Made by a program: the position numbers and the translations under genes. Positions 43,598 through 63,650 of a stretch of DNA of 64,000 nucleotides are shown piece by piece (position 1 is the first letter of the stretch; each line of letters opens with the position of its first letter). The notes under the pieces are model-generated. The model searched no databases and had not been told where the DNA came from. It saw only the letters and a list, made by a program, of their open reading frames with translations. The DNA is taken from contig NZ_AP023180.1 of assembly GCF_013426915.1 (NCBI RefSeq), positions 2,480,001 through 2,544,000 of the forward strand. Direction: 5' to 3'. This DNA comes from Paraburkholderia sp. PGU19. Lineage in GTDB: Bacteria > Pseudomonadota > Gammaproteobacteria > Burkholderiales > Burkholderiaceae.

Positions 43598-43942
43598 CTA
43601 TTGCGTCATCACCCATTGAATCAACTGATGGGCATCCTCGGCTGAAATTGGCCCGCCGCGTTCCGGCGGCAGCGGCATGGCGGTATCGCCCCAATGCGCA
43701 CGCCCACCCTTTCTGAGCTTGATTTCGAGCATCTGTGTCGCGTTCGGTACGTTGCGGTAACGGTCGGCAATCTGATGAAACGACGGTGCAAGAAAAGGCG
43801 CATCGGATGTGTGACAGAACATACAGTGATGCTGATCGACCAGTTCGCCCGGTTCATTCGATTGTGCCCAGACTGGACTCACACCGGCGACGACAATGCT
43901 CGACGCGCACGCAAAGTATATGAGGGGACGTGCATGAATCAC
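43598..43942 (-). CDS. Small periplasmic c-type cytochrome
   Basis: This 114-residue precursor has a Sec signal peptide ending near VWAQ (residue 27). It carries one heme-attachment motif CMFCH (near 40) and a distal methionine candidate in TAMPLPPE (near 89). The layout is that of a class I cytochrome c of the c551/c552 type, which shuttles electrons in the periplasm. It lies 67 bases downstream of the nitroreductase gene on the same strand and is probably cotranscribed with it under the FNR-like box at 45106. It is the left-most gene of the low-oxygen block. Confidence 0.88.
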   Translation of the reverse strand: MIHARPLIYFACASSIVVAGVSPVWAQSNEPGELVDQHHCMFCHTSDAPFLAPSFHQIADRYRNVPNATQMLEIKLRKGGRAHWGDTAMPLPPERGGPISAEDAHQLIQWVMTQ

Positions 43943-44009
43943 GGCAAGAACTCCTTTTGTTTATCCAGGATTTTTTCTGTTTCGATCACCGAAGGACAAT
44001 TCAGCGACG

Positions 44010-45041
44010 TCAGTCGACGACATCCGACAAAGCTCGCCGCGGCGAATGCTCCGCATGTGGGCCACGGCCAACGCGCAGCAGCAACTGCGGCACGGCATCG
44101 ACCTTCAACAGGACCTTGAGCTGTTCGCGCAACGTGGCGACTTCGATGGGCTGATTCAGATACGACGCCGTCAACCCTTTGGACGCTGCAACAAGCAACA
44201 TACGTTGAAGTGCCTGCCCTGCAGCCAGCCACGCCTCGCTGTCGTCACGCATCGTGGCAATACCTACGAGAAGGGGGGAGCCTTCGACGAGCCGTTGATG
44301 CGTGGCGGGTGTCCCGGCACCGACGTCGAATACGCGAACCACTGACGCCATTAGCGGCATTGCAAAATCGAGCAGACCGCCGACGGCCGTTCCGTACGCC
44401 GGCATGCCGTCGGCGAGCCGGCGCGGATGAATCCAGCTTGCGAGTTCGCGACGAAAGCGCGGATCGGCAAACTGTATTCTGTCGGCTTCCGCGATCAGCG
44501 ATGCGATGGACTGGCGGGAAGACTCCTCGTCTACGCAGATTGCAATGGCGCCTTCCGCGTCGCATGCGGCCATCATCTCGTTCTTGAAGGACTCGGCGAT
44601 GGATTCATTGGCGAAGGGAGCACGGGTCGTCACGCGTTTCGCTACCGCACTGAACAGATTCGCCAGGGAAGCGTCGCGGGCCCCTTTAGTGGTGACCTTG
44701 ATGCGCGCGACGATATCGGGATCAAAGTCCGATGGGAACACGCTAATCGAATAGGCGAGTCCGAAATGACTCAGCGCGACGCGCAAATTGAATAACGCCG
44801 CGCCACAACTGATGAGCATCTCGCGATCGAATGGATCGACGACGGGCAACGCGCGTGTGCGGTCGGCACAGAGCTGGACGGTGTCCTCATCGACAATGAA
44901 TCGCCAGGGTTGCGCGTTGTGATTCGAAGGGGCAAGCACGGCATATTGCAGTGCGAAGCGGATCTGTTCCTTCATCGGCGCGAGGGCGTCGAACAGGTGC
45001 TCGTCGATCTGCCACGCAGACGTGGACACGGGCGCGCTCAT
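44010..45041 (-). CDS. Nitroreductase-fold protein, Acg-like
   Basis: The 343-residue protein is a duplicated nitroreductase-fold protein like mycobacterial Acg. The first half has FALQYAVLAPSNHNAQPWRF (FMN phosphate site, residues about 30-50) and the second half has ASYLNQPIEVATLREQLKVLL near the end. Acg-type proteins bind FMN without clear nitroreductase activity and are members of hypoxia regulons in mycobacteria. ATG 45041 is chosen because AAGGAA lies seven bases upstream; the frame continues to 45119 without conserved residues. An FNR-like box (45106-45119) sits 64 bases upstream, consistent with induction at low oxygen. Confidence 0.87.
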   Translation of the reverse strand: MSAPVSTSAWQIDEHLFDALAPMKEQIRFALQYAVLAPSNHNAQPWRFIVDEDTVQLCADRTRALPVVDPFDREMLISCGAALFNLRVALSHFGLAYSISVFPSDFDPDIVARIKVTTKGARDASLANLFSAVAKRVTTRAPFANESIAESFKNEMMAACDAEGAIAICVDEESSRQSIASLIAEADRIQFADPRFRRELASWIHPRRLADGMPAYGTAVGGLLDFAMPLMASVVRVFDVGAGTPATHQRLVEGSPLLVGIATMRDDSEAWLAAGQALQRMLLVAASKGLTASYLNQPIEVATLREQLKVLLKVDAVPQLLLRVGRGPHAEHSPRRALSDVVD

Positions 45042-45105
45042 GGGAATGTTCCTTTCAATCCTTGATGGACTTTCATTCATCGTGGCACGCAACGTGGCGG
45101 AGCAT

Positions 45106-45119
45106 TTGAGGCAGATCAA
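45106..45119. promoter_or_regulatory. FNR/ANR-like box TTGAGGCAGATCAA
   Basis: One half-site change from TTGAT-N4-ATCAA. It lies 64 bases upstream of the nitroreductase start, a distance repeated at the other boxes. Confidence 0.65.
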
Positions 45120-45144
45120 TCGACGTGTTGCAAGTGCTCACCTT

Positions 45145-45417: not shown

Positions 45418-45441
45418 GCGCGCCTGCCGTCCGGGCAGCCG

Positions 45442-45455
45442 TTGACGTGAGTCAA
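45442..45455. promoter_or_regulatory. FNR/CRP-like palindrome TTGACGTGAGTCAA
   Basis: Perfectly symmetric half-sites TTGAC/GTCAA with a four-base spacer. It lies 85 bases upstream of the universal stress protein gene at 45541 and just upstream of the divergent LuxR-type frame. Confidence 0.6.
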
Positions 45456-45540
45456 TTTCAATTGAGCGCGTTGAACCACACTGTCAATTACCTTCACTCA
45501 TCGCCTTGACGGGCGACGACAAACTGGACGGAGGTTGACC

Positions 45541-45999
45541 ATGTATGAACGAATCGTCGTCGCACTCGACGACAGCGCCTGCGCGCAGCGCGCGCTAGGA
45601 GAGGCCGTGCGGCTGGCACAACTGTCGCACGGGGTCGTGGAGGTGCTGTCCGTCGTGGATAGGGGCAAGTGGCCGGCGGAAGGCGACACGGTATACGCAC
45701 TCGAACCTGAAACCCGCATCGCTGCGAGCATTGCCGGCCAGATATTGGAAGGGGCGGAGCAAGTCTTGCGCGAAGCCGGCGTGCGCGGAACGGTGCGGGC
45801 GATCGACGCATACGATGAGAACGTTTCCGCAGTACTGGCGCGGGCCGCCGACGAATGTGATGCCGACGTCATCGTGATTGGCACGCATGGAAGGCGTGGT
45901 ACGCGGCGGCTTTTGCTTGGCAGTGTCGCCGAGTCGCTCCTGCGTGCTACGCAACGGCCGGTGTTGGTCGTGCGGCACGATTCGGCCCATCTCGCGTGA
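45541..45999 (+). CDS. Universal stress protein (UspA family, ATP-binding type)
   Basis: The 152-residue protein is a single USP domain. It opens with ERIVVALDDSACAQRALGEA, where the Asp after the first strand is typical. It contains the nucleotide-binding motif G-x2-G-x9-G-S as GTHGRRGTRRLLLGSVAESLL near residue 120 and ends with RPVLVVRHD. USP proteins support survival under growth arrest and low oxygen. ATG 45541 follows GGAGG with six bases between. Upstream is a TTGAC-N4-GTCAA box, so low-oxygen control is likely. It is one of three USP genes in the block. Confidence 0.93.
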   Translation: MYERIVVALDDSACAQRALGEAVRLAQLSHGVVEVLSVVDRGKWPAEGDTVYALEPETRIAASIAGQILEGAEQVLREAGVRGTVRAIDAYDENVSAVLARAADECDADVIVIGTHGRRGTRRLLLGSVAESLLRATQRPVLVVRHDSAHLA

Positions 46000-46041
46000 T
46001 GTAAGGCGGCCGATGTTTTCGGCATGGTGCGGGAAGGCGGC

Positions 46042-46055
46042 TTGATTCAGGTCAA
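46042..46055. promoter_or_regulatory. FNR/ANR-like box TTGATTCAGGTCAA
   Basis: TTGAT-N4-GTCAA, identical in all 14 bases to the site at 51083-51096. It lies 71 bases upstream of the small gene that leads into phaB. Confidence 0.75.
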
Positions 46056-46298: not shown

Positions 46299-47045
46299 AT
46301 GGAAAAAGGACGTGTGGCTTTTGTCACGGGCGGCATGGGCGGGCTTGGGGCGGCGATCAGCAGGGCGTTGCACGATGCCGGCATCACCGTGGCCATGTCG
46401 TACTCGACACGCAACGATCACGTGGCGACGTGGCTGATGAAGGAACGTGATCAGGGTCGTCACTTTCACGCGTACGAAGCCGATGTCAGCGATTTCGATT
46501 CGTGCGAACGCTGCGCGAAGCGCGTACTCGATGAATTGAAGAAGGTGGATATCCTGATCAACAACGCCGGCATCACACGCGATATGACGTTCGCCCGCAT
46601 GACCAAAGCGGATTGGGATGCCGTGCTGCGCACCGATCTCGATGGACTGTTCAACATGTCCAAGCAGTTTCTGCCAGGGATGATCGAGCGCGGCTATGGA
46701 CGTATCATCAACGTCAGTTCGGTGAATGGTTCGCGGGGCGCGTTCGGACAGGTTAATTATTCGGCTGCGAAGTCTGGCGTGCATGGCTTCACGAAGTCGT
46801 TGGCGCTGGAAGTCGCGAAGCGCGGCATCACCGTGAACACCGTGTCGCCGGGTTATCTGGCAACGGCGATGGTTCAGGCCGTTCCTCACGACATCATGGA
46901 ATCAAAGATTCTGCCGCAGATACCCGTTGGGCGGCTCGGACGCCCGGAAGAGATCGCAGCACTCGTGGCGTTTCTCTGCTCCGATGAAGCGGCGTTCATG
47001 ACGGGCGCCAATCTCGCGATAAACGGCGGCATGCACATGGAGTGA
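46299..47045 (+). CDS. phaB: Acetoacetyl-CoA reductase (PhaB-type SDR)
   Basis: The 248-residue NADPH-dependent SDR matches PhaB throughout. It has VAFVTGGMGGLGAAISRAL, with the G-x-x-x-G-x-G loop, and AMSYSTRND after strand 2, suiting NADP. NNAGITRDMTFARMTKADWD and the catalytic NVSSVNGSRGAFGQVNYSAAKSG (in parts, Tyr-x-x-x-Lys near 153) are followed by NTVSPGYLATAM. It reduces acetoacetyl-CoA to (R)-3-hydroxybutyryl-CoA, the monomer of polyhydroxybutyrate, and consumes reducing power, a sensible step when oxygen is short. ATG 46299 has GGGAG upstream. No synthase or phasin gene is adjacent. Confidence 0.92.
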   Translation: MEKGRVAFVTGGMGGLGAAISRALHDAGITVAMSYSTRNDHVATWLMKERDQGRHFHAYEADVSDFDSCERCAKRVLDELKKVDILINNAGITRDMTFARMTKADWDAVLRTDLDGLFNMSKQFLPGMIERGYGRIINVSSVNGSRGAFGQVNYSAAKSGVHGFTKSLALEVAKRGITVNTVSPGYLATAMVQAVPHDIMESKILPQIPVGRLGRPEEIAALVAFLCSDEAAFMTGANLAINGGMHME

Positions 47046-47718: not shown

Positions 47719-48744
47719 CTAGTCGAGCGCCAGCACGACGCGCCCGTCGACGGTTCCCTCACGCAATTGCCCGAGCACGTTGTTGATGTTCTCGAGGCGA
47801 TCGCGCTGGATATGTGCGCGAACGCTGCCTTGCGCGGCGAAATCGAGCGACTCCTGCAAATCGCGTCGTGTGCCGACAATCGATCCGCGCACCGTAATGC
47901 CATTGAGCACGGTCGAGAAGATCGGTAACGGAAAGTCGCCGGGCGGCAGGCCGTTCAACGCGACCGTTCCCCCACGCCGCACCATGCCGAGTGCCTGTGC
48001 AAAGGCGCTTCGCGATACGGCTGTCACCAGCACGCCGTGCGCTCCACCGATTTCCTTTTGAATAGTGGCCGCGGGGTCCGTGGTGTTCGCATTGATCGTC
48101 AGCTTCGCACCCAGTTTGCGTGCGAGCGCCAGTTTCTCGTCGGAGATGTCGACGGCGACGACGTGCAGGCCCATCGCGATCGCATACTGCACGGCCACGT
48201 GACCCAAGCCGCCAATGCCTGAGATGGATAACCACTGGCCAGGGCGCGTGTCCGTCACGCGGATGCCTTTATACACCGTGACACCGGCGCAGAGAATCGG
48301 CGCGATTTCGTCGAATGCGATGTTATCGGGCAGATGTCCGACGTAGTTCGGATCGGCGAGCACGTATTCCGCATATCCGCCGTTGACCGAGTAGCCGGTG
48401 TTTTGCTGGTCGTGACACAGCGTTTCCCAGCCGCTCAGGCAATGCTCGCAGTAGCCGCAGGCCGTATAGAGCCAGGGCACGCCCACGCGGTCGCCTTCCT
48501 TGACGTTCCTCACGCCGCTGCCGACCTCGGCGACATAGCCCACGCCCTCATGACCAGGAATGAACGGCAAGGACGGCTTGACGGGCCAGTCTCCGTCGGC
48601 GGCATGCAGATCGGTATGACACACGCCGGACGCCTTGATGTTGACCAGAATCTGGCCCGGCCCGACTTCGGGAACCGGGACTTCCTCGATACTCAGCGGC
48701 GCACCGAATTGATGGACGACGGCGGCCTTCATGTAACGCGTCAT
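47719..48744 (-). CDS. adhP: Zinc-dependent alcohol dehydrogenase (AdhP-like)
   Basis: The 341-residue enzyme has the medium-chain dehydrogenase layout. The catalytic zinc site is [17 protein letters not shown] with GHEGVGYV. A structural-zinc lobe of four cysteines sits in [17 protein letters not shown]. The NAD-binding [15 protein letters not shown] lies near residue 175. AdhP-type enzymes interconvert ethanol and acetaldehyde with NAD and give a fermentative outlet. ATG 48744 is preceded by AGGAGG; the longer frame to 48807 is not needed. The gene is transcribed leftwards below a 430-base region that holds two small open frames and FNR-like boxes. No box lies within 100 bases of its start. 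Confidence 0.93.
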
Positions 48745-49032: not shown

Positions 49033-49046
49033 TTGATCCCTGTCAA
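49033..49046. promoter_or_regulatory. FNR/ANR-like box TTGATCCCTGTCAA
   Basis: TTGAT-N4-GTCAA. It lies 59 bases upstream of the minus-strand small frame at 48973 and 288 bases upstream of adhP. Confidence 0.65.
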
Positions 49047-49100
49047 CCCGTTCACGAATAGAACCGGTTTCCAGCGGTATTCGAGGGAATCGGAGGCTCT

Positions 49101-49114
49101 TTGACCAGGATCAG
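49101..49114. promoter_or_regulatory. FNR/ANR-like box TTGACCAGGATCAG
   Basis: Two changes from TTGAT-N4-ATCAA. It lies 62 bases upstream of the small plus-strand frame at 49177. Confidence 0.5.
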
Positions 49115-49176: not shown

Positions 49177-49311
49177 GTGTCGATCCAGCATGGTCAACCC
49201 GACGAACTGAACGGACAAGCCGTCGCGGCTGATGAGATCACTTACGAGATCGTCGACCTCGCGACGACAGCAGCACGGGCGCCACTGCAATTGGGCGCGC
49301 AGGGGGCGTGA
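49177..49311 (+). CDS. Small acidic protein (44 residues) coupled to the next lipoprotein gene
   Basis: A GTG at 49177, with GGAG eight bases upstream, opens a 44-residue frame: SIQHGQPDELNGQAVAADEI, then TYEIVDLATTAARAPLQLGA. Its TGA overlaps the ATG at 49311 as TGATG, so translation of the next gene may be coupled. An FNR-like box precedes it at 49101-49114. No family is recognised, but the ribosome-binding site, the overlap and the acidic composition support a real gene. Confidence 0.6.
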   Translation: MSIQHGQPDELNGQAVAADEITYEIVDLATTAARAPLQLGAQGA

Positions 49312-49766
49312 TGGCACGGATGAACATCGGGCTGTGCATCGCTCTCGTCGGTTTGGCATGGCTTGCTGCGTGCGCAACGGCCTCGCGCGACACGGCGTTC
49401 CGTGCCGAAGAAGTCGAACTCTTCCATGCTCGCCAGGAAGCGAGCATTGTCTGCACCACGGCGCCCGCCTGCGACGAAGCGTGGGCGCGCACGAGAACGT
49501 TCATCGCAGCGCATTCGGCGACGCGGATCGTGCAGGCCGACGATGCCGTGATTCAGACCGCGTTTCCGCATGCGTTCGGCTATGTCTATCTGGCCGCGTC
49601 GAAAGACGCCGACGGCAACGGCGGGGCGGCCATCCGGCTGAAGGCGATGTGCCGCGGAATGTACGACAGCGACGGTAATGCCGGGCTGCTGTATGCGACA
49701 TGCGCAAAGTCGGTCATTTCGGTGGAGGCGGGTTTCAGGGCGTGGCTGGAGAAGCGGGGCGAATGA
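49311..49766 (+). CDS. Small lipoprotein, unknown function
   Basis: The ~151-residue product begins with a lipoprotein signal (CIALVGLAWLAAC-A, lipobox LAAC near residue 21). The mature part contains four or five cysteines (for example IVCTTAPACDEAW and AMCRGMYD). The DEAWARTRTFIAAHSATRI helix and later strands resemble small envelope proteins annotated only as hypothetical. GTG 49308, ATG 49311 and ATG 49320 are possible starts; 49311 overlaps the stop of the preceding small gene. It is the second gene of a box-preceded unit. Confidence 0.7.
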   Translation: MARMNIGLCIALVGLAWLAACATASRDTAFRAEEVELFHARQEASIVCTTAPACDEAWARTRTFIAAHSATRIVQADDAVIQTAFPHAFGYVYLAASKDADGNGGAAIRLKAMCRGMYDSDGNAGLLYATCAKSVISVEAGFRAWLEKRGE

Positions 49767-49862: not shown

Positions 49863-49876
49863 CTGATCTGAATCAA
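49863..49876. promoter_or_regulatory. FNR/ANR-like box CTGATCTGAATCAA
   Basis: One change from TTGAT-N4-ATCAA. It lies 131 bases upstream of the K+-channel-like gene at 50008. Confidence 0.5.
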
Positions 49877-50007: not shown

Positions 50008-50853
50008 ATGGTTAGCGGCCTCGACTTTTTCACGATCGGCGGCGCGGATTCGCATGACGGTGCGCGCGCCGTTCACGCGTGGCGCGTTATCCGCTGGCTT
50101 CTGTGCGGATGGAGCCTGCTTGCCATCCCCGCGTTCTATGGCGAACTCACGGCGACTTCACCGGGCGCGCTGGCGATTGCGCGAAGCCTGTACCTGTGCA
50201 TGTTCGCCGGCTTCGCAATCTGCCTGCTGTGGATGTTTCACGCGAGCAGGAAGCCTAAGGCATGGCTCGCGCACAATCGCCTCGACGTGACGATCATGAT
50301 CGGCGCCGCATTCAGCGCAGGGTGGGGAGCGCCGCCCTGGCAGACGGTCGAATGGGTATTGCGTCTGCTCTTCGCGAGCCTCGTTGCGATCCGCATCGTC
50401 CTGTCGTTGAAAGGTTATTTCGCACCCAACCGGCTCATCGGTCTGCTGATCGCGGGTGCCGCCGTGCTCGCCATGGCGGGCGCGGGATTCCTCTGGCTCG
50501 AACCGAGGGTCCACAACTACGCCGAGGGTCTCTGGCTCGCGTTCGAAAGCAGCGCGACGGTCGGTTATGGGGATATCGCGCCGACCACGCCCGCATCGCG
50601 CGTGTTTGCCGTGTTCGTCGTATTGCTGGGGTACGGCATGCTCTCGCTGGTCTTTGCCAGCATTGCGGCCACGTTGATCGGCAAGGAGGAACGGGCGCTG
50701 CGCCACGAAATGCACCGCGACATCAAACATCTGAACGCAGAAATTGATCAACTGCGCGCAGAGCTGCGGGCATTGCGCGAGAGCCTGGTTCCATCAGGCG
50801 ATGCGATCACTGAAGCAGAAGCGCGCCATCCCGCACTGCGAGATAAGCACTGA
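50008..50853 (+). CDS. Potassium-channel-like membrane protein
   Basis: The 281-residue protein has six hydrophobic segments. Between the last two lies a pore loop with the selectivity filter SATVGYGDIAPTTPASR (near residue 182), the hallmark of K+ channels. TM4 does not show the regular arginine array of voltage sensors. The cytoplasmic C-terminus, EERALRHEMHRDIKHLNAEI followed by DQLRAELRALRESL, is heptad-like and likely forms a coiled coil for tetramer assembly. It lies between the small lipoprotein gene and two USP genes, and an FNR-like box precedes it. A role in membrane potential during anoxia is an inference. Confidence 0.87.
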   Translation: MVSGLDFFTIGGADSHDGARAVHAWRVIRWLLCGWSLLAIPAFYGELTATSPGALAIARSLYLCMFAGFAICLLWMFHASRKPKAWLAHNRLDVTIMIGAAFSAGWGAPPWQTVEWVLRLLFASLVAIRIVLSLKGYFAPNRLIGLLIAGAAVLAMAGAGFLWLEPRVHNYAEGLWLAFESSATVGYGDIAPTTPASRVFAVFVVLLGYGMLSLVFASIAATLIGKEERALRHEMHRDIKHLNAEIDQLRAELRALRESLVPSGDAITEAEARHPALRDKH

Positions 50854-51008: not shown

Positions 51009-51022
51009 TTGAGGCACATCAA
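51009..51022. promoter_or_regulatory. FNR/ANR-like box TTGAGGCACATCAA
   Basis: One change from the consensus, 146 bases upstream of the USP gene at 51169. First of two tandem boxes spaced 74 bases apart. Confidence 0.6.
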
Positions 51023-51082
51023 GACCTGGGTTTCGCGCTGGCTTCAGCGTGGCGCGGATAAGGACGTGCACCACGACGACCG

Positions 51083-51096
51083 TTGATTCAGGTCAA
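51083..51096. promoter_or_regulatory. FNR/ANR-like box TTGATTCAGGTCAA
   Basis: Identical to the box at 46042-46055. It lies 72 bases upstream of the USP gene at 51169. Confidence 0.75.
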
Positions 51097-51168
51097 TCCC
51101 GCAGCCGCTCCAGCATCGAATATAGAAACATCCATGGCGCACACGCCAGCAACGGCATGAGACACGCG

Positions 51169-52221: not shown

Positions 52222-52698
52222 ATGTACAAGCGGATTATGGTTGCGCTGGACGGCAGCAAGTCGGGCGAGCGCGTGCTGGAAGAGGCTGTGAAAATGGCGA
52301 GTCTCACGCAGGGAACCATTCTCGCCGTCTATGTCGTCGACAAGACACCGCTGTTCGGCTATGCCGGATACTACGACCCGATCGCCCTTGTCGACGCCTT
52401 GCGCAAGGATGGCCGCGAGACGCTCCAGAACGCGGAGGCGGCATGCAAGGCAGCGGGCGTTGCATGCGAACCGGAACTGATCGAAACCGAGCGGCTTTCC
52501 GAAGACGTCGCCGAAACGCTTCGACATTACGCGGCGCGGACGCGCGTGGAACTGGCCGTGCTCGGCACGCATGGCCGTCGAGGCGTGCGCCGCGTCGTGC
52601 TTGGCAGCGTGGCCGAGCGCTTCGTCCGCTTTGCCGAGTGTCCCGTGTTGCTCGTGCGTGGCGCAGAGCCTGAGCACGAGGTCGGGACGGACGCCTGA
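52222..52698 (+). CDS. Universal stress protein (UspA family, ATP-binding type)
   Basis: The 158-residue protein starts at ATG 52222 after AGGAGGAGTTCACC. It has YKRIMVALDGSKSGERVLEE at the N-terminus, and GTHGRRGVRRVVLGSVAERFV (near residue 115) gives a complete G-x2-G-x9-G-S nucleotide motif. It is a close paralogue of the USP at 45541. The short gap to the tandem USP gene indicates one operon under the two boxes at 51009 and 51083. The PLFGYAGYYDPIALVDAL insert after strand 2 is longer than in the paralogue. Confidence 0.93.
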   Translation: MYKRIMVALDGSKSGERVLEEAVKMASLTQGTILAVYVVDKTPLFGYAGYYDPIALVDALRKDGRETLQNAEAACKAAGVACEPELIETERLSEDVAETLRHYAARTRVELAVLGTHGRRGVRRVVLGSVAERFVRFAECPVLLVRGAEPEHEVGTDA

Positions 52699-55159: not shown

Positions 55160-56376
55160 AACATCCACCCATCCGTATGCTCGGCATCGGCGGCATCGAT
55201 CTGCGCGCGAATCTCGTCCGCATCGAAGTCGCGGCGATCGAATGCGTAGTCGCGAAAAGCCTGCAGCCACGGGCGAAACCTCACCCCCGGCAACCCGGTC
55301 CGGCGCTGCGCTTCAGCGAGTGAGCGGCGCACGATCTGTCCCGGATCGGTGGTCGGCTTCGTGCATCCCGGCAGCCCCCAGGTGAAGCCGGACGGATAGA
55401 GCATCGGCGAAATATAGTCGAGCGGCGCGCCGAGCGTTTCGAGTTGCTGGCCAATCGCAGTGTCGTCGAGGTTCCAGCATACGTAGCCGAAAATATCGGC
55501 GGACACGAAGACGTTGTAGGGCGCGAGACGGGCGCGAGCGGCCTGGAGAAAACCCGCGATCGCGGCAGTGCGGTTCGCTCGCGTGTTCGGCTCGCTGAAA
55601 GTCAGCCCCGCTGCGTCCGGGAAGCGCACATAGTCAAACTGGATTTCGTCGAAACCGAGGCGCGCCGCTTCTTCCGCGACGTCGAGGTTGTGCTTCCAGA
55701 CTTCGCGGCGAAACGGATCGACCCATTGCAGCTTTTCCCGATCCCGCCAGATGTTGCCCTGCGCGTCCCGAACGGCCCATTCGGGATGGGCGGTGACGAG
55801 CGGGTCATCCTTGAAAACGACGATGCGCGCGATCAGGTACAGGCCTTCCTGATGCAGATTCTGCAGCAGCGCGGCCATGTCGTGGACGACGGGTGCGGGC
55901 GATGGCGCGTTCGCTGCCGCGCCGGCTATCTCGCGCGCTTCGCTCTCATATGAGGTCAGGCCGCGGTCGCCTTTTGCGTCGATCACCAGTGCATTGACGC
56001 CATTTGTTTCCTTGAGCGCCACGGCTGCGTTGCGCAGGCTCGCCGTCGCCACGCCGTAGATGGACAGATAGACGCCCCGTACGCGAAACGGCGTCAGCGC
56101 AACCACGATCGGCTGGTTGGAAGTCGCGGTCACGGACGCCGAGCGGTAGCCCGGCGCACGCGCTGCGACAACCCGGACATGGTCGGCGCTGACAAAGGCG
56201 CCGTTGGCGTCGGCATACTGGGGTTTGCCGTCGAGGGTCACGGTTGCGTGCGGTATCGGCCGATGCGTTGCTTCATCGACGATTACGCCCTGCACCTCGG
56301 ACGCCGCGCGCGTCGACGAGATGCCGATGCAGACGAGTAGTGCGGCGCAGTACAGAACGATGCGCGCGCGCTTCAT
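55114..56376 (-). CDS. Putative glycoside hydrolase (DUF4015) with a carboxypeptidase-regulatory-like domain
   Basis: The 420-residue precursor has a signal peptide ending near TRAAS (residue 25). A short beta-sandwich domain (VQGVIVDEATHRPIPHATVT, about 28-95) is followed by a TIM-barrel of the DUF4015 glycosidase-like type. Its features are VNALVIDAKGDRGLTSY near 130, FDEIQFDYVRFPD near 245 with the likely acid residues, and SADIFGYVCWN near 298. The fold relates to enzymes of the GH13/GH18-like clans; no product is known. Its start overlaps the stop of the deacetylase gene by four bases (ATGA), and its end overlaps the NamZ fusion gene, so the three are translated as one unit. Confidence 0.85.
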   Translation of the reverse strand: MKRARIVLYCAALLVCIGISSTRAASEVQGVIVDEATHRPIPHATVTLDGKPQYADANGAFVSADHVRVVAARAPGYRSASVTATSNQPIVVALTPFRVRGVYLSIYGVATASLRNAAVALKETNGVNALVIDAKGDRGLTSYESEAREIAGAAANAPSPAPVVHDMAALLQNLHQEGLYLIARIVVFKDDPLVTAHPEWAVRDAQGNIWRDREKLQWVDPFRREVWKHNLDVAEEAARLGFDEIQFDYVRFPDAAGLTFSEPNTRANRTAAIAGFLQAARARLAPYNVFVSADIFGYVCWNLDDTAIGQQLETLGAPLDYISPMLYPSGFTWGLPGCTKPTTDPGQIVRRSLAEAQRRTGLPGVRFRPWLQAFRDYAFDRRDFDADEIRAQIDAADAEHTDGWMLWNPRNRYDPAQLPH

Positions 56377-57206
56377 CGGCGAACCTCCGCTGCCTGATCG
56401 GCTGGCGTCTCGGGCTCGCCGAGCAGGCGGCCGAGTATGCGCGGCGTCACATCGTCGACCATCAGAAAACGGGGTAGCGCCATTAACGGCGAAGAGGGCC
56501 TCACACGCTGCGCATTCAGTGTAAAGGCCGCCACATAGCCCAGCTTGCTCGCGATGCGCACCAGATCGTCGTCGTACAGACCGAAAGGCCAGGCGACCAT
56601 GTCGACCTGTCCGCCCAGTCTGGACTCGATCAGTTCGCGCGAATGTTGCAACTGCGTGCTGGCGAAACGCTCGAATTCGGCGGGCGCCTGGCGCCGCCGC
56701 TCAACGTGGAAGTTCGGATGCCACCAGGTGTGCGATTGAACGTCGAACAGTCCCGTGGCCCGCAAGGTCCGCAATTGTTCCCAGGTCAGCGCATACGATG
56801 CGTTCGAAATCGCAGACGGATAGACAAACAGGGTGACGGGCAACTGCTCGCGTTGCGCGATTGGCAGCAGCCTTTGATAGACCGATTCATGGCCATCATC
56901 GACGGTCAGCGCGACAGCCTTGCGCGGCAGCGTCGCAGCAGGATCGCGCAGCCAGGTCACGATCGCACGCAGGGGCACGATCTCGTACCCGTGCTGTTTC
57001 AGGAAGCGAAGCTGCGCTTCGAAGGTCGTGACGCGCACAGTCATCGAATCATCGGCCGTATCCGAGAAGCGGTGATAGACGAGAATCGCGACGGCCGACA
57101 CGGCCTCATGCGTGCCTTGCTCTGCGAATGCCGTGGGCGAGGCCAGCAGCGAGACGGTCATCAACATGATCGCGACCAGCAGAAGGAGTGCCGCGCTGCG
57201 GTGCAT
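56373..57206 (-). CDS. Secreted polysaccharide deacetylase (NodB/CE4 family)
   Basis: The ~277-residue protein has an N-terminal signal (LLLLVAIMLMTVSLLASPTAFA) and a CE4 domain. VAILVYHRF opens it, ALTVDDGHESVYQRLL carries the Asp-Asp metal/base motif near residue 102, and DVQSHTWWHPNFHV supplies the two metal histidines near 160. VAWPFGLYDDDLVRIA completes the core. It should remove N-acetyl groups from an amino-sugar polymer in the periplasm. ATG 57206 is chosen; the frame is open to 57344. It is first in an operon with a DUF4015 glycosidase and the NamZ fusion, below two perfect FNR-like boxes. Confidence 0.88.
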   Translation of the reverse strand: MHRSAALLLLVAIMLMTVSLLASPTAFAEQGTHEAVSAVAILVYHRFSDTADDSMTVRVTTFEAQLRFLKQHGYEIVPLRAIVTWLRDPAATLPRKAVALTVDDGHESVYQRLLPIAQREQLPVTLFVYPSAISNASYALTWEQLRTLRATGLFDVQSHTWWHPNFHVERRRQAPAEFERFASTQLQHSRELIESRLGGQVDMVAWPFGLYDDDLVRIASKLGYVAAFTLNAQRVRPSSPLMALPRFLMVDDVTPRILGRLLGEPETPADQAAEVRR

Positions 57207-57370
57207 CGCGTGCGGCGCATTGCGCGAACGCGTGAGAGTGCGTGCGTGACGAATGACGGGCGTGATGTGCGACACGACGATTCTCCGCGAAAAGCAGGCG
57301 CGATCGCGCTTCGTTCGCGCGACTGCAGTGGACTGTCTGCCCATTTAAGTCGTCTTCCGTGGCTGCTGAC

Positions 57371-57384
57371 TTGATCTGTATCAA
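57371..57384. promoter_or_regulatory. Perfect FNR/ANR box TTGATCTGTATCAA
   Basis: Exact TTGAT-N4-ATCAA palindrome in the divergent region between the deacetylase operon (start 57206, 164 bases away) and hsp20 (start 57539). Confidence 0.8.
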
Positions 57385-57439: not shown

Positions 57440-57453
57440 TTGATCGACATCAA
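57440..57453. promoter_or_regulatory. Perfect FNR/ANR box TTGATCGACATCAA
   Basis: Second exact palindrome in the same divergent region, 85 bases upstream of the hsp20 ATG. Spacing from the first box is 69 bases. Confidence 0.82.
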
Positions 57454-57538: not shown

Positions 57539-57976
57539 ATGAGCAATCTGACGCGTTTTGACCCGTTCTCACTGGACCCTGTGGTTTCGGATCTGTTTCA
57601 GGGTTTTTTCCGGCCTATGCGATCGCTGGCGACGACGCAGGACGCTGAGCTTGCTTCGATGAAAATCGACGTGACGGAGAACGAGGGTGCCTATACGGTG
57701 AAAGCCGAACTGCCGGGCATCGACAAGAAGGATATCGACGTCCAGATTGACGGGCGCATCGTCTCGATCAACGCGAAGGTCGAACGGAACAAGGAAGAGA
57801 AGGAGGGCGAGCGCGTAATCCGTCGCGAGCGCTATTCGGGTGCGTTCAGCCGCTCGTTCTCGCTGGCGGGCGAAGTCGACGATACAAAAGCGACGGCTGA
57901 GTACAAGGATGGCGTGCTGTCGCTGAGCCTTCCGAAACGGGCGCCGAGTGATCAGAAGCGCATTGCGGTCAACTGA
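57539..57976 (+). CDS. Small heat-shock protein, Hsp20/alpha-crystallin family
   Basis: This 145-residue chaperone has a short N-terminal arm (LTRFDPFSLDPVVSDLFQGF), an alpha-crystallin domain from about residue 38 (ASMKIDVTENEGAYTVKAEL) through GVLSLSLPKRAP, and a short C-terminal tail ending in IAVN. Such proteins hold unfolding proteins in the cytoplasm. ATG 57539 follows AAGGAGAG. Two perfect FNR boxes upstream suggest induction by oxygen lack in place of a classic heat-shock promoter. A strong terminator follows. Paralogues of this length are typical members of low-oxygen blocks in Burkholderia. Confidence 0.93.
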   Translation: MSNLTRFDPFSLDPVVSDLFQGFFRPMRSLATTQDAELASMKIDVTENEGAYTVKAELPGIDKKDIDVQIDGRIVSINAKVERNKEEKEGERVIRRERYSGAFSRSFSLAGEVDDTKATAEYKDGVLSLSLPKRAPSDQKRIAVN

Positions 57977-58130: not shown

Positions 58131-58727
58131 TCAGTCAAGCGCGTCGTGATGCAGTTTGCGGGACCAGAAGACGATGAGCACAACGGCGCCGACCATGCCG
58201 CCCAGATGCGCGAAATGTGCGACACCCGGCGCTGCCCGCGACACCCCCAGCAACAGTTCGATTGCTGCATAACCGGTGGCAAAGAGCCACGCGGGCATCG
58301 GAATGGGCGGGAACAGCAGCACGACCCGCCGCTGCGGAAAGATCAGGGCATACGCGACAAGCACACCAAACACCCCGGCAGACGCACCTATGGCCGGATA
58401 TGCATCGCCTGCAAGCATCAGGCTGGTGAGTAGCTGCGCGACCCCGCCGCACACGACGCTTGCCGCATAGAGCATCAGAGTTCTGCGCGCGCCGAGCACA
58501 CGTTCCACCTCGCTGCCGAACATGAACAGGCCGAGCATGTTGAACACGAGATGCGTGAGATTGGCATGCAACGCGCTGTATGTCAGAAGCTGCCAGAAGT
58601 GGAATACGGGAACGTCGCTGTTCGCCGTCTGCAGCGGCCACAGCGCATAGCGGTCGATCGGCGAATCCGGGCTGGCCGCCTCGATCGCGAATGCGAACAC
58701 GTTGAGTGCAATCAGGAAGAGTGTCAT
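58131..58727 (-). CDS. Rhomboid-family intramembrane serine protease
   Basis: The 198-residue protein has six hydrophobic segments and the rhomboid motifs. HFWQLLTYSALHANLTHLVFNMLGL carries the conserved His and Asn (in parts, near 43-65), GASAGVFGVLVAYAL has the catalytic serine (near 116), and AHFAHLGGMVGA has the catalytic histidine (near 170). It cleaves membrane proteins within the bilayer; targets are unknown. ATG 58727 lies 74 bases from an FNR-like box (58802) that is shared with the divergent BON gene, so it belongs to the low-oxygen block. Confidence 0.92.
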   Translation of the reverse strand: MTLFLIALNVFAFAIEAASPDSPIDRYALWPLQTANSDVPVFHFWQLLTYSALHANLTHLVFNMLGLFMFGSEVERVLGARRTLMLYAASVVCGGVAQLLTSLMLAGDAYPAIGASAGVFGVLVAYALIFPQRRVVLLFPPIPMPAWLFATGYAAIELLLGVSRAAPGVAHFAHLGGMVGAVVLIVFWSRKLHHDALD

Positions 58728-58801: not shown

Positions 58802-58815
58802 TTGATCTGCATCAG
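58802..58815. promoter_or_regulatory. FNR/ANR-like box TTGATCTGCATCAG
   Basis: One change from consensus. It is centrally placed in the divergent region: 74 bases from the rhomboid start and 73 bases from the BON-protein start. Confidence 0.75.
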
Positions 58816-58888: not shown

Positions 58889-59539
58889 ATGAAATCAGAC
58901 CGGCAGTTGAAGAAAGAAGTCGAGGAAGAACTGGAGTGGGATCCCGCTGTGACGGCGACGGACATCGGGGTTGAGGTGACCGATCGCGTCGTCACGCTAT
59001 CCGGTCATCCGCCGAGCTACGCCGAAAAGCTCGCTGCGGAAAAGGCGGCACATCGCGTGGCCGGGGTGCGGGCCGTTGTGGTGGAGATGGAGGTGCGGCT
59101 GGCTCAGAAGGACGTGCGCACCGACGAAGACATCGGCAGAGCGGTGCACGATATCGTGCACTGGACGGTCGGCCTGCCCGACGATTCAGTGAAGGTGCAG
59201 GTCGAGAAAGGCTGGGTGACGTTGACAGGCGTGGTGGATTGGGCGTACCAGGCGCATGTGGTCGCGCGCGCAATCGGCCACATGCGCGGTGTGCGGGGTG
59301 TCCACAACCGGATAGAGGTGCGCGGCAAGGTCGCGTCGGAAGACATCGCCTCAAAGATCGCGCAGGCGATGCAACGGCATGCCGAGCGCGAAGTCAGGCA
59401 CATCGGCATCGACGTAAAGGATGGAACGGTGACGCTGACAGGCAAAGTCGGTTCTTACGCGGAACGGGCTGTCGCAAGAGGGGCCGCGTGGAGTGCGCCC
59501 GGCGTGCGAGCGGTTGTCGACGATATCGTCGTCGAATGA
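58889..59539 (+). CDS. Triple-BON-domain protein
   Basis: ATG 58889, behind GAGGAG, opens a 216-residue protein with three BON domains at about 3-70, 75-145 and 148-215. Each ends in a V-x-L-x-G-x-V/H-type turn (VVTLSGHPPS, VTLTGVVDWA, VTLTGKVGSY). There is no signal peptide, so this is probably a cytoplasmic or loosely associated protein, unlike the periplasmic OsmY. BON domains bind membranes or phospholipid. The gene shares its promoter region and FNR-like box with the divergent rhomboid gene. A 79-residue gene follows 64 bases later. Confidence 0.9.
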   Translation: MKSDRQLKKEVEEELEWDPAVTATDIGVEVTDRVVTLSGHPPSYAEKLAAEKAAHRVAGVRAVVVEMEVRLAQKDVRTDEDIGRAVHDIVHWTVGLPDDSVKVQVEKGWVTLTGVVDWAYQAHVVARAIGHMRGVRGVHNRIEVRGKVASEDIASKIAQAMQRHAEREVRHIGIDVKDGTVTLTGKVGSYAERAVARGAAWSAPGVRAVVDDIVVE

Positions 59540-59603: not shown

Positions 59604-59843
59604 ATGGCGATGACGGGAAACGTGCAGGACGGCGCATGGTCTGTGAACGTGCAGACGGAACCTGCCGAAACGGGCGGTTATCAGACGACAATCCACGTCA
59701 GGCACTCGTCGCCGGAAGGCGACTTCGAGCATACCTTCTGCCACGGGAGGAAATTCAACTCCGAACGGGATGCTGTGCTCGATGGCCTGCGCGAAGGCAC
59801 GACGTGGATAGGTCTCAAAATGGCGCGAACCATCAAGATGTGA
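59604..59843 (+). CDS. Small conserved-looking protein of unknown function
   Basis: ATG 59604 is preceded by AAAAGGAG, a strong ribosome-binding site, and opens a 79-residue frame. The sequence has beta-strand-like segments (GAWSVNVQTEPAETGGYQTT and IHVRHSSPEGDF) and a C-terminal helix (ERDAVLDGLREGTTWIGLKM). No family is named with confidence. It follows the BON gene and is likely cotranscribed with it. A hairpin of 7 bp (59913-59932) lies downstream, between it and the convergent MBL gene. Confidence 0.75.
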   Translation: MAMTGNVQDGAWSVNVQTEPAETGGYQTTIHVRHSSPEGDFEHTFCHGRKFNSERDAVLDGLREGTTWIGLKMARTIKM

Positions 59844-59940: not shown

Positions 59941-61305
59941 CTATAGCCCTTCGAGTTCGACCGATTGCTGATAGACGGGCACCTCGCAGGCCCACCCAAA
60001 CGTCTCTGCAATGCGCCGCCGCATCGCATCCGCTGCCGCCGGCTCGCCGTGCGTCACGTAAGTACGCGCGGGCGGATCCCGCAGACTCGATAGCCATTGC
60101 AGCATTTCACGGTAGTCGGCATGCGCCGACAACGACGTGATCGACACGATATTGGCGCGCACGCGCACATATTCGCCATGCAGCTTGATCGCGCTTTCGT
60201 GGGCGGCGAGCGCAGCGCCACGCGTGCCGGCCGCCTGGAAGCCGACGAGCGCGATGGTATTGCGTGGATCGGACGCATAGAGCTGCAGATGATGCAGCAC
60301 CCGGCCACCCGTCGCCATGCCGCTGCCCGCAATGATCACCATCGGACCGTGCCGGGATGCAATCGCCTTCGACTCTTCGACCGTTCGTGTCATGATCGCG
60401 ACCTTGTCCATCGCATTCGCTTCGGACATCGTCAGCCGATGTTCGTCGAGGTGCTTGCGGTACACATCCGTGACGCTTGTCGCCATTGGGCTGTCGAGAT
60501 AGACGGGCACGTTCGCCATGCGGCCGGTCTCCTTCAGCTTCGAGATGTAATAGAGAATTTCCTGTGCGCGCCCAACGGCGAAGCAGGGCATCACCACGAC
60601 ACCGCCTTTGGCGAAGGTCTTGCTGAACATCTGCGCGAGTTCGTCTTCGGGGTCCGTGTCCGGGTGCAGGCGGTCGCCGTAGGTCGATTCGACGACGAGA
60701 TAGTCCGCATGCATCAGCGGTGTGGGCGCGCGCATGATGGGATCTTCCGGCCGTCCCACATCGCCTGAGAAGGCAAGTACCTTGTGGTTGCGGCACACGA
60801 CGACACTTCCCGCGCCGAGGATGTGGCCCACCGGCAGGAACCGGAACGTGATGCCATGTGGCAACTCGACGGGGGTGTCGAAAGGGCGCGGCATGAACAG
60901 ATGCAGCGCGCGTTGGGCGTCTTCGAGCGTGTACAGCGGCAGTGCCGGGTGATGTTTCGAGAAACCGTGCCGGTTTGCAAAATCCGCTTCTTCTTCCTGC
61001 AGCCTCGCGCTGTCGCGCAGCATGATTTCGCACAGTGCTGCGGTGCCCGGCGTGCAGTACACGGGACCACGAAAGCCGTTGCGAACCAGCAATGGCAGAT
61101 AGCCGCTGTGATCGAGATGGGCGTGAGTCAGTATCACGGCGTCGATCGAGTCTGCCGAAACGGGCAGCGGCTCCCAGTTGCGCATCCGCAGATTCTTGAC
61201 GCCCTGGAAAAGCCCGCAATCGACGAGAATCCGCACGCCGGTTTCTTCAAGCAGATACTTCGAGCCGGTCACGGTTTCGCTCGCACCGAGAAAGGTCAGC
61301 TTCAT
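59941..61305 (-). CDS. MBL-fold beta-CASP (RNA-specificity) metallo-hydrolase
   Basis: The 454-residue protein starts with LTFLGASETVTGSKYLLEE and has the metal motif LTHAHLDHSGYLP near residue 60. Further ligands lie in LPVGHILGAGS and AFSGDVGR. A beta-CASP region (DSPMATSVTDVYRKH, IIAGSGMATGGRVLHHL) and the closing SAHADYREMLQWL with a zinc-ligand histidine follow. These features define the CPSF73-like RNA-specificity group found in many bacteria and archaea; RNA cleavage is likely but unproven for this subgroup. Its promoter has an FNR-like box at 61369. ATG 61305 follows GGAGG. Confidence 0.9.
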   Translation of the reverse strand: MKLTFLGASETVTGSKYLLEETGVRILVDCGLFQGVKNLRMRNWEPLPVSADSIDAVILTHAHLDHSGYLPLLVRNGFRGPVYCTPGTAALCEIMLRDSARLQEEEADFANRHGFSKHHPALPLYTLEDAQRALHLFMPRPFDTPVELPHGITFRFLPVGHILGAGSVVVCRNHKVLAFSGDVGRPEDPIMRAPTPLMHADYLVVESTYGDRLHPDTDPEDELAQMFSKTFAKGGVVVMPCFAVGRAQEILYYISKLKETGRMANVPVYLDSPMATSVTDVYRKHLDEHRLTMSEANAMDKVAIMTRTVEESKAIASRHGPMVIIAGSGMATGGRVLHHLQLYASDPRNTIALVGFQAAGTRGAALAAHESAIKLHGEYVRVRANIVSITSLSAHADYREMLQWLSSLRDPPARTYVTHGEPAAADAMRRRIAETFGWACEVPVYQQSVELEGL

Positions 61306-61368
61306 TGCGCCTCCGCGTAGGTGGGCATGGTCACAAGCTCAATTGCACCCGATGTCGCCGCTGTGCCA

Positions 61369-61382
61369 TTGATCCAGGTCAG
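61369..61382. promoter_or_regulatory. FNR/ANR-like box TTGATCCAGGTCAG
   Basis: TTGAT-N4-GTCAG, 63 bases upstream of the MBL gene start. Confidence 0.55.
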
Positions 61383-61436
61383 CAACGCGTCGCGCAGCGG
61401 GCGAAAGTGAAAACACGGTCGCGCGCTTGTCACGGC

Positions 61437-61450
61437 TTGACTTGCGTCAT
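61437..61450. promoter_or_regulatory. Weak FNR/CRP-like site TTGACTTGCGTCAT
   Basis: Degenerate half-sites, 236 bases upstream of the DUF485 start. Less convincing than the others. Confidence 0.35.
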
Positions 61451-61686
61451 GCAGTTATTCGTGTAAACCCGGGCGGGAGAAACGCGTTGCCGTAAGAACC
61501 GGGTAAGCGCGTGCTCTTAATGTACTACCCGGCGCACGACAATAACGACGCATCGAAGCCCACGCGCGAAAGCATTGCACCGAATCCCCATCGGGACACG
61601 CGGTGCGTAAAGATGCCCCTCGTTACGACCATGGCCGGAAGAGGGCGCTTGTCAGTCAGCGAAAGCTGCCCATGCAGGAGACGAAG

Positions 61687-61992
61687 ATGGATGTGAAACT
61701 CGCAGAGAAAGTGAAGTCGAGCGCGGCGTATCGCGAGCTGGTGCGAAAGCGCTCACGGCTTGGGTGGACACTGACCGCCCTCGTGTTGTTCGTCTATTAC
61801 GGCTACGTTCTGCTGATTGCCTTCAACAAGCAGTTTCTTGCCGCAAAGGTGGGCACGGGTGTGACGACGTGGGGCATGCCGCTTGGACTGTTCGTTATCG
61901 TATTCACAGTGGTTATCACGGGTTTCTATGTTCGTCGCGCCAACAGCACATACGACGAACTCACCGAGCAGATCAAGCGGGAGGCAGCATGA
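61687..61992 (+). CDS. DUF485 membrane protein (YjcH-like)
   Basis: The 101-residue protein has two hydrophobic helices ([20 protein letters not shown] and [20 protein letters not shown]) and a [21 protein letters not shown]-terminus, the standard DUF485/YjcH layout. It is regularly encoded just before acetate symporters and is presumed to be a partner subunit. ATG 61687, with AGGAG six bases upstream, is chosen. Its stop overlaps the start of the symporter gene (ATGA), indicating coupled translation. Confidence 0.92.
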
Positions 61993-63650
61993 TCGCACGA
62001 CGTCTTTGCGCTTTTACTGCGCTGTCTGTCTTCTCATCGTATTGTTTCTCCGCTGGCGCGGACATGGGCCAGACGGTGAAACAGCCGACCAACTGGACGG
62101 CAATTTCGATGTTCGTCGTCTTCGTGGTCGCGACGCTTTTCATCACCAAATGGGCTGCGAGACGGACGCGCTCCGCCGCCGAGTTTTACACTGCGGGTGG
62201 CGGAATCACGGGTTTCCAGAACGGACTGGCAATCGCCGGAGATTTCATGTCGGCAGCTTCGTTCCTGGGCATCTCGGCAGCCGTCTATGCAAACGGCTAT
62301 GACGGTCTCATCTATTCGATCGGTTTTCTGGTTGGCTGGCCGATCATCACGTTTCTGATGGCCGAAAGACTGCGCAATCTCGGCCGTTTCACGTTCGCCG
62401 ACGTGGCTGGATATCGCTTCAAGCAGGCGCCGATCCGCGCATTCGCCGCATCGGGTACGCTCGTGGTCGTGGCGTTCTATCTGATCGCGCAGATGGTCGG
62501 TGCCGGACAGTTGATCAAATTGCTGTTTGGACTCGAGTATTGGGTCGCGGTGGTGATCGTGGGTGCGCTCATGATGGTTTACGTGCTGTTTGGCGGTATG
62601 ACGGCAACAACCTGGGTGCAAATCATCAAGGCGTGTCTGCTGCTTGCGGGCGCCTCGTTCATGGCATTTATGGTGCTGTGGCAATTTCATTTCAGCCCTG
62701 AAGCGCTCTTTGCGAAAGCCGTCGAAGTGCATGAGAAGAAGGCGTCCATCATGGGTCCGGGCAATTTCATCAAGGACCCGATCTCGGCAATTTCATTCGG
62801 CATTGCACTGATGTTCGGCACGGCTGGGCTGCCGCACATCCTGATGCGATTCTTTACCGTGCCTAACGCCAAGGAAGCACGCAAGTCGGTGTTCTGGGCA
62901 ACGACATGGATCGGTTACTTCTACATCCTGACCTTCATCATCGGCTTTGGCGCCATCGTTCTTGTCAGCACGAACCCCGTGTTCAAGGATGCAGCGGGCA
63001 AGCTGCTGGGCGGCACGAACATGGCTGCCGTGCATCTTGCGAGTGCGGTGGGTGGCAACGTGTTTCTCGGGTTCATTTCAGCGGTGGCGTTCGCAACGAT
63101 CCTGGCCGTCGTCGCGGGTCTCACGTTGGCCGGGGCATCGGCTGTGTCGCATGATTTGTATGCGACCGTCTTCAAGCATGGCAAGGCAGCGAGTGTGAAC
63201 GAGCTGTTTGTTTCGCGCGTTACGACTGTCGTGCTGGGTATTGTCGCCGTCGTGCTCGGGATCGTATTCGAGAAGCAGAACATTGCATTCATGGTGTCGC
63301 TGGCGTTTGCCGTGGCGGCGTCGGCCAACTTTCCAGTGCTGTTCATGTCGGTTCTGTGGCGCGGTTGTACCACACGTGGTGCGACGATCGGCGGCTTTCT
63401 CGGATTGGTTTCCGCTGTATTGCTGACGGTTCTCTCGAAAGCGGTGTGGGTGGACGTGTTCCACTTTGCGACGGCGCCATTCCCCTACGCATCGCCCGCA
63501 CTCTTTTCGATGGCGATCGGCTTCGCTGGCATCTGGCTTTTCTCGTTGACAGATAGATCCGCTCGTGCGCGCATCGATCAGGCCGGGTTCGAGGCGCAGT
63601 CGGTACGCTCGGAAACCGGGATTGGCGCGGTGGAGGGCGCAAGTCACTAA
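61989..63650 (+). CDS. actP: Cation/acetate symporter (SSS family)
   Basis: The 553-residue protein is a sodium/solute symporter of the ActP group with about 13 membrane helices. It has [20 protein letters not shown] and [13 protein letters not shown] near residue 60, [20 protein letters not shown] and RFTFADV near 110, and [22 protein letters not shown] near 275. An N-terminal signal-like segment ends near SAGA. It imports acetate and related short carboxylates with a cation. The start at ATG 61989 overlaps the stop of the DUF485 gene by four bases; this pairing is characteristic. Acetate recapture fits the fermentative genes nearby. Confidence 0.93.

Follow-up and report, generated by a model that had tools for sequence, protein, structure and literature searches.

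The low-oxygen-activated locus (lxa) of Burkholderia cenocepacia comprises BCAM0275-0323 (PMC6127331) and is induced at low oxygen (PMC9733578; PMC9104464). In Table 2 of PMC4981469 the locus runs, with other genes interspersed, from a universal stress protein (USP), a function-unassigned protein, Hsp20, a phospholipid-binding (BON) protein, a cytochrome c and a hypothetical protein, through USPs, PhbB, a zinc alcohol dehydrogenase and a metallo-beta-lactamase, to a cell-division metallopeptidase, a phosphofructokinase, a polysaccharide deacetylase and three hypothetical proteins. Two of these products are labelled further in PMC6127331, as DUF1488 (the function-unassigned protein) and as a protein of nitro-compound reduction (the hypothetical protein). 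Three genes of the CRP family, BCAM0049, BCAM0287 and BCAM1483, are listed as its predicted regulators (PMC4981469, citing the founding lxa paper). B. cenocepacia H111 lacks lxa, and the loss of both anr genes abolished its anoxic survival; a putative Anr box has already been published before the cytochrome bd genes of this strain (PMC9104464). The window analysed here is a stretch of 64,000 nucleotides from Paraburkholderia sp. PGU19 (NZ_AP023180.1, positions 2,480,001 to 2,544,000). Between positions 43598 and 63650 of the window lies a gene block with FNR/ANR-type boxes, which is very probably a member of the lxa family with class II activation at low oxygen. The dormancy regulator DosR of Mycobacterium tuberculosis differs from FNR in regulator class and DNA motif, and the likeness of the block to its regulon is functional, not sequence-based. 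The analogy lies in USPs, alpha-crystallin and phosphofructokinase standing under one hypoxia regulon (PMC6127331).

The original prediction, made from the DNA letters, had already called the block lxa-like. Pfam searches recovered all of the gene content that it named, together with genes that it had not listed, namely a deacetylase/DUF4015/NamZ operon, an ion channel and a small cytochrome c. At least nine gene families are common to the block and the published lxa list (BCAM0275a-BCAM0323; PMC4981469 Table 2; PMC6127331): USPs, Hsp20, BON, cytochrome c, the nitro-reduction protein, PhaB, zinc alcohol dehydrogenase, metallo-beta-lactamase and polysaccharide deacetylase. The cytochrome c scores slightly under its Pfam cut-off, and a tenth family, DUF1488, is unsupported, its candidate of 79 residues (59604-59843) having no Pfam match. 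The sequence comparison with the Burkholderia cepacia complex was made with a stretch of B. stagnalis (L122) that no annotated feature overlaps. Ordered by homology, this stretch encodes USP, Hsp20, BON and cytochrome c, further on beta-CASP, and then FtsH, PfkB, deacetylase, DUF4015 and NamZ, an order of families that agrees with BCAM0276-BCAM0315 (PMC4981469 Table 2). It carries 15 exact boxes in 49.5 kb. The identities of the window proteins to those of B. stagnalis are 65% for BON, 66% for cytochrome c, 72% for beta-CASP, 49% for the deacetylase, 63% for DUF4015, 52% for NamZ and 52-55% for the USPs. This homology and the shared families support the lxa-like reading. The block also differs from lxa in that no CRP-family regulator gene was found in it, whereas lxa contains BCAM0287; PfkB, a protein of phosphoenolpyruvate (PEP) synthase type, FtsH, a P-type ATPase and an FNR-type gene lie on contig C4 instead, with GroEL and an ATP synthase set, and groEL persists in the block only as a remnant heading the deacetylase operon. 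The lxa locus itself is already known; the block is a reshuffled addition to this known low-oxygen survival locus.

The boxes are 14 bases long and of TTGAT/C-N4-A/GTCAA type (pattern TTGAYNNNNRTCAA). A scan of the window with at most one mismatch gave 19 matches, compared with a mean of 4.56 in shuffled sequence (standard deviation 2.01, largest 10), and none of 100 shuffles reached 19. Fourteen of the matches lie inside 45106-61450 and the remaining five within the first 45 kb. All thirteen predicted boxes are present, six of them exact and seven with one mismatch (Table 1). The fourteenth box of the block, at 58125, had been missed; it is weak, with one mismatch, and has no assigned gene start. 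Two perfect palindromes had been claimed: the half-sites are complementary at three sites (45442, 57371 and 57440), and the spacer is self-complementary in none. The predicted distance of 59-86 bases to a start codon is confirmed for seven pairs of box and gene, which range from 60 to 85 bp; the other assignments fall outside, at 24 bp (from 45442 to a short LuxR-type frame) or at 95-304 bp. Start codons were chosen among the in-frame candidates, and the distances depend on this choice.

In the whole genome (11.25 Mb, five contigs) the exact box occurs 93 times, against 16 times for the pattern read backwards as a control, and three sub-patterns cover the 93 sites fully (23, 55 and 15). The cluster in the window consists of six exact boxes in 12 kb, and when 93 sites were placed uniformly 20,000 times, six never fell within any 12.1 kb. 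Comparison with the genome background, set beforehand as the test, showed a density far above the background; this excess of the TTGAT-N4-ATCAA-type box fits class II FNR/ANR promoters. The statement that comparable sites are missing elsewhere stands for the window and falls for the genome, in which the densest region, C4:1338339-1399789, has 23 exact boxes in 61 kb and C3:31155-41103 has four.

In class II FNR/ANR promoters the box stands about 41 bases upstream of the start. The geometry was measured on the exact boxes of the window and of 52 fetched loci (L048-L061, L066-L092, L111-L121), 198 after redundant ones were removed. On sides with a candidate gene the likeness to TATAAT is greatest at a gap of 21 (T 0.34, A 0.48, ..., T 0.57). 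A match of at least 4/6 at a gap of 20-23 is found for 30% of the 245 gene sides, compared with 19% of the 151 other sides and 3.3% of positions chosen at random. The boxes of the related islands therefore show class II FNR promoter spacing, with the -10 element about 21 bases past the box; within the window block only some boxes reach 4/6. Box pairs were examined in a set of 53 non-redundant pairs, at most 100 bp apart and with at least one exact box. Counting -10 elements with a match of 4/6 or better, 53% of the left boxes and 47% of the right boxes have one on the outer side, against 6% and 4% on the inner side and 4% at random positions. At least one outward -10 is found in 43 pairs and both in 10, and a candidate gene flanks 37 pairs on both sides, 13 on one side and three on none. 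Because the -10 elements point outward and rarely inward, the pairs are mostly two back-to-back divergent promoters, and tandem sites of one promoter were rejected as the main case. Most pairs differ in this respect from class II FNR/ANR promoters with tandem sites. In the block, 57371 is the box directed towards the deacetylase operon, and 57440 the one directed towards hsp20. In a literature search in which some matches were judged by title, the matches listed included no paper on back-to-back FNR promoters, none joining FNR boxes to Burkholderia USPs or to Paraburkholderia groEL, and none giving an Anr regulon motif; the founding lxa paper (Sass 2013) lay outside its coverage.

Density over background, presence in related islands and class II spacing together argue that these are probably FNR/ANR-type sites. 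As oxygen falls, one or more of four FNR-type iron-sulfur regulators would bind the TTGAT-N4-ATCAA boxes, and each box, centred near -41, would activate RNA polymerase in the class II manner. Of two boxes that separate divergent genes, each would mostly drive its own outward gene. The products, which include USPs, Hsp20, BON, beta-CASP, fermentation-type dehydrogenases, an acetate-type symporter and putatively exported glycan enzymes, would then serve non-growing survival at low oxygen. Low-oxygen induction of the block in Paraburkholderia sp. PGU19 is thus a prediction from sequence.

At least three FNR/ANR-boxed islands sit on different contigs of this one large Burkholderiaceae genome. The content of the C4 island was assigned by Pfam, with 30 of the listed frames run, and by likeness to the window proteins. 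Its products include an arginine deiminase, a sulfate permease, two PAS-type histidine kinases, a P-type ATPase, PfkB, a PEP-synthase-type protein, a BON protein (48% identical to that of the window), USP-like proteins, a nitroreductase, Hsp20 (90%), FtsH, GroEL, a MacB-type transporter, an ATP synthase gene set, a PhaB-like frame of 160 residues (85%) and an FNR-type regulator. The C4 island is the larger lxa-like part of the genome and the window block its satellite. The ATP synthase set is of F-type (alpha, beta, a, b and gamma by Pfam; 6109-12731 of L090, C4:1374001-1394000). Two C4 boxes lie at 1386794 (one mismatch) and 1386874 (exact), and the exact one is about 140 bp upstream of the beta-type ATP synthase gene. 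One genome thus splits the lxa set over several contigs and has four FNR paralogues, which makes the assignment of paralogues to promoters testable.

The 22 related named loci compared (Paraburkholderia, Burkholderia, Caballeronia and Trinickia; some overlap the loci with G handles) are equally mosaic, with one to nine exact boxes each. Across islands of these four genera, the lxa gene set is tied to a concrete promoter layout. A near-box before the BON gene, at the same place as 58802, is present in many related loci. A locus of the close relative Burkholderia sp. Ac-20365 (L069), with a BON protein 95% identical, lacks the stretch corresponding to about 49.18-58.78 kb, so that the promoter region on the adhP side adjoins that of the BON gene. 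Modules seem to be gained and lost between boxed promoters.

The operon on the minus strand (57344-52745) codes for a polysaccharide deacetylase, a DUF4015 protein and a serine-hydrolase/NamZ fusion. Both NamZ domains are over the cut-off (PF07075 232 bits, PF20732 118 bits), and the serine-hydrolase domain of the fusion matches PF00144 alone. A partnership of AmiE, a muramyl amidase, with NamZ is known. The nearest solved structures of the deacetylase include PgaB, and a role restricted to peptidoglycan was dropped, since among solved structures the protein is nearest to PgaB-type poly-N-acetylglucosamine deacetylases. The operon may connect low-oxygen survival with envelope glycan processing. 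It had also been considered as a novel addition to lxa; this was rejected, as Table 2 of PMC4981469 lists the deacetylase BCAM0312 and B. stagnalis has deacetylase, DUF4015 and NamZ in the same place. On contig C1 an exact FNR box lies about 6 kb from a frame of 682 residues, PgaB-sized and a distant match to the deacetylase (C1:1826861, C1:1833029).

Among 144 genomes of the genus, a deacetylase orthologue (E at most 1e-60) is present in 19, at 20 loci, two of which have an internal stop within the match. At 18 of the 20 loci the operon, or its groEL head, is preceded by an exact box; in L112 the contig ends first. A Caballeronia locus viewed beside the 20 (L083) has only one-mismatch boxes at the operon. 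The alignment of nine loci places the outward -10 facing the operon at a constant distance from the box, as TTAAAT in five and as variants in the other four. Between box and deacetylase, groEL is near full length in L051, L052 and L056 and partial in L112 (residues 315-555), L057 (15-161) and L054 (493-522). In the other 14 loci tblastn at 1e-4 found no groEL at the operon head; in four of these (the window, L111, L060 and L113) the first groEL codons can be recognised by eye, in frame with the deacetylase. The deacetylase tree groups the window with L111 and L112 (98/94), and L054, L060 and L113 with L051 (97/93). This tree and the differing remnants suggest at least three events in which groEL may have been lost or cut. 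A groEL of the same type on C4, 89%, 93% and 76% identical to the copies of L051, L052 and L056, has an exact box upstream, and at the other three GroEL loci scanned neither an exact nor a one-mismatch box occurs in the 4.4-4.5 kb covered; the C1 GroEL locus (L096) was left out of the groEL comparison, the frame taken evidently not being groEL. The boxed C4 groEL and the three unboxed loci are a hint that the deacetylase genes were kept with the boxed promoter rather than with groEL. Three points go beyond the original prediction: the distribution of the set over several islands, the arrangement of boxes as back-to-back class II promoters, and the apparently repeated loss of groEL at the start of the envelope operon.

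Several observations weigh against an FNR/ANR-controlled member of the lxa family. The synteny expected with lxa extends to homologous proteins and shared families and fails for gene order: the block is short, with about 19 reordered genes, whereas lxa is a cluster of about 50 genes of conserved order. Eight of the 14 boxes in the block carry one mismatch, and several have no good -10 (58125; 61437 rightward). The box at 51009-51022 has a fair leftward -10 (TAGAGT) with no minus-strand gene in place, and leftward transcription from it would run antisense into the ion-channel gene. The leftward TCTTAT of box 57440 matches at 4/6, therefore the deacetylase operon might start from either box. The deacetylase gene of B. 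stagnalis has only a one-mismatch box close before it, and L059 keeps the operon without a box. Finally, lxa is transcribed in air in B. contaminans (PMC4981469), and oxygen may therefore not be the sole signal.

Some of these points favour the explanation that the boxes serve only certain genes, such as those for Hsp20, BON and the USPs, and that the deacetylase operon and others merely adjoin boxed promoters. Both boxes before the operon in the window also precede hsp20, the deacetylase is confined to 19 of the 144 genomes, and the L059 operon does without a box. This explanation is rather unlikely in view of the constant -10 distance in the nine aligned loci, of the exact boxes at 18 of 20 loci, some without a recognised divergent neighbour, and of BCAM0312-0315, which rise together with the rest of lxa (PMC4981469 Table 2).

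The search for regulators of the FNR type scored 150 of 256 first-look candidates with the PF00325 profile and found at least four genes over the cut-off (C1:2345169, C2:1824750, C3:33240 and C4:1393756), the last two inside the other two islands. All four proteins have CxxCx5C near the N-terminus, another central cysteine and an ExxSR helix, which are features of oxygen-sensing FNR/ANR. The half-site cannot separate FNR, ANR, Dnr and FixK-type proteins, and the boxes could serve another CRP/FNR-family regulator that shares it (a Dnr/NnrR-like nitric oxide sensor or a FixK-type protein), the main signal then not being oxygen. The transcription of lxa in air (PMC4981469) would fit such a regulator, as would the BCAM0049 homologue of B. 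dolosa, FixK, which is controlled by FixLJ (PMC6127331). It is quite unlikely, since all the PF00325 proteins found among the scored candidates bear the oxygen-sensing cysteine motif. An effect of chance or composition is extremely improbable: the motif is short and the 53-bp-spaced exact pairs of G067, G104, G134 and G164 resemble, by eye, conserved coding or mobile sequence, but the shuffles, the backwards control, the uniform placements and the recurrence of boxes in related islands all speak against it.

The spacing within box pairs was analysed in at least 150 exact pairs of the genus; the backwards control gave no pair. Among the pairs listed, spacings of 35-37, 43-50, 53-60, 65-73, 76-82 and 85-93 bp occur and none of 38-42, 51-52, 61-64 or 83-84 bp. 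Clustering into spacing families left one lumped family of 49 of 150 pairs. For 54 genus families from the pairs listed, none of 10,000 uniform sets was as periodic at periods of 10.2-10.8, the best period, 10.8, being at the edge of the range. Thirty families of the fetched loci, with spacings up to 95 bp and data that overlap the genus set, gave a period of 10.5 with a phase of 0.46 turn (p 0.0001). A first clustering into 45 families gave p 0.0004 but a best free period of 11.2-11.3. All 39 families of the fetched loci, with spacings to 152 bp, peak at 9.75 and 11.5 with 10.5 weak, which counts against phasing. The phasing was not reproduced outside the genus, in 36 exact pairs from the rest of the order (R 0.18-0.20, p 0.25-0.31), in which 39-41 bp is the commonest spacing (10 of 36). 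This spacing is absent among the exact genus pairs listed, and two one-mismatch genus pairs have 39 and 40 bp. Helical phasing was rejected as a general rule, as it fails outside the genus and the set of 39 families peaks elsewhere. For the genus itself it is possible, although doubtful, that the islands are built from interchangeable back-to-back class II FNR pairs about half a helical turn out of phase (near 36, 46, 56, 68, 79 and 90 bp, with few near whole turns), and that an operon can lose its head gene, groEL for example, but retain the boxed promoter, which then serves the gene behind it. If so, half-turn spacing would let two activated polymerase complexes bind a short shared region from opposite faces. 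Spacing-dependent repression has been reported for artificial tandem FNR sites.

Table 1. Genes and boxes of the block, in window positions; -10-like hexamers are given with their gap to the box and, in brackets, their match to TATAAT.
Feature	Position	Strand	Remarks
Small cytochrome c (CMFCH motif), cf. BCAM0284	43598..43942	-	PF00034 E 0.0029, 19.3 bits, under the 21.3 cut-off; 66% to B. stagnalis homologue
Nitroreductase-family protein, cf. BCAM0285	44010..45041	-	PF00881, frame 44010-45119; start chosen; named Acg-like in the original prediction
FNR-like box, one mismatch	45106..45119	-	64 bp before nitroreductase; CACGAT at gap 21 (3/6)
FNR box, exact, complementary half-sites	45442..45455	+	85 bp before USP; 24 bp before opposite-strand short LuxR-type frame
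USP	45541..45999	+	PF00582
FNR box, exact	46042..46055	+	-10-like TAGATT at gap 21, facing phaB (243 bp)
Short-chain dehydrogenase, PhaB-like acetoacetyl-CoA reductase	46299..47045	+	PF13561/PF00106
Zinc alcohol dehydrogenase (AdhP-like)	47719..48744	-	PF08240/PF00107
Box pair 49033 (exact) and 49101 (one mismatch), 68 bp apart	49033..49114	.	between adhP (288 bp) and lipoprotein-like gene; TATCTT at gap 21 of 49101
Small lipoprotein-like protein	49311..49766	+	no family above cut-off
FNR-like box, one mismatch	49863..49876	+	TAGGCT at gap 21 (3/6); 131 bp before ion channel
Ion-channel-like membrane protein	50008..50853	+	PF07885
Box pair 51009 (one mismatch) and 51083 (exact), 74 bp apart	51009..51096	.	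51083 lies 60 bp before USP
Tandem-domain USP	51157..52185	+	PF00582, two stretches, frame from 51049
USP	52222..52698	+	PF00582
Serine-hydrolase domain fused to NamZ exo-N-acetylmuramidase	52745..55159	-	PF00144, PF07075, PF20732; PDB 4k05; N-terminus signal-like by eye
DUF4015 putative glycoside hydrolase	55114..56376	-	PF13200; PDB 4s1a; N-terminus signal-like by eye
Polysaccharide deacetylase	56373..57344	-	PF01522; PDB PgaB entries; groEL remnant in frame near N-terminus (by eye)
FNR box, exact	57371..57384	-	class II position for deacetylase operon: TTAAAT at 57348-57343, gap 22
FNR box, exact	57440..57453	+	85 bp before hsp20; CATGCT at 57475-57480, gap 21 (3/6); leftward TCTTAT, gap 22 (4/6)
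Hsp20 small heat-shock protein	57539..57976	+	PF00011
Rhomboid-family membrane protein	58131..58727	-	PF01694, 103 bits
Single FNR-like box, one mismatch	58802..58815	.	midway between rhomboid (74 bp) and BON (73 bp)
Triple-BON protein, cf. BCAM0280	58889..59539	+	PF04972, three stretches, frame from 58706; 65% to B. stagnalis
79-residue protein, no family assigned	59604..59843	+	no Pfam match
Beta-CASP metallo-beta-lactamase, cf. BCAM0300	59941..61305	-	PF10996, PF07521; 72% to B. stagnalis
Box pair 61369 and 61437 (one mismatch each), 68 bp apart	61369..61450	.	61369 lies 63 bp before beta-CASP; TGCAAT at gap 21
DUF485 protein (61687-61992) and acetate-type sodium:solute symporter (from 61989)	61687..63650	+	PF04341, PF00474

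The deacetylase gene more likely starts at 57275 (GTG) or 57206 (ATG) than at 57344. The minus-strand frame 45147-45417, which lies 24 bp from box 45442, encodes 90 residues with a LuxR-type helix-turn-helix (PF00196, 58 bits) and no receiver domain; it may be either a small regulatory protein or what is left of a response regulator. Outside the block, an ALIL pseudoknot (Rfam RF01497), typical of the frameshifting elements of the IS3 family, lies at 27026-27142 of the window.

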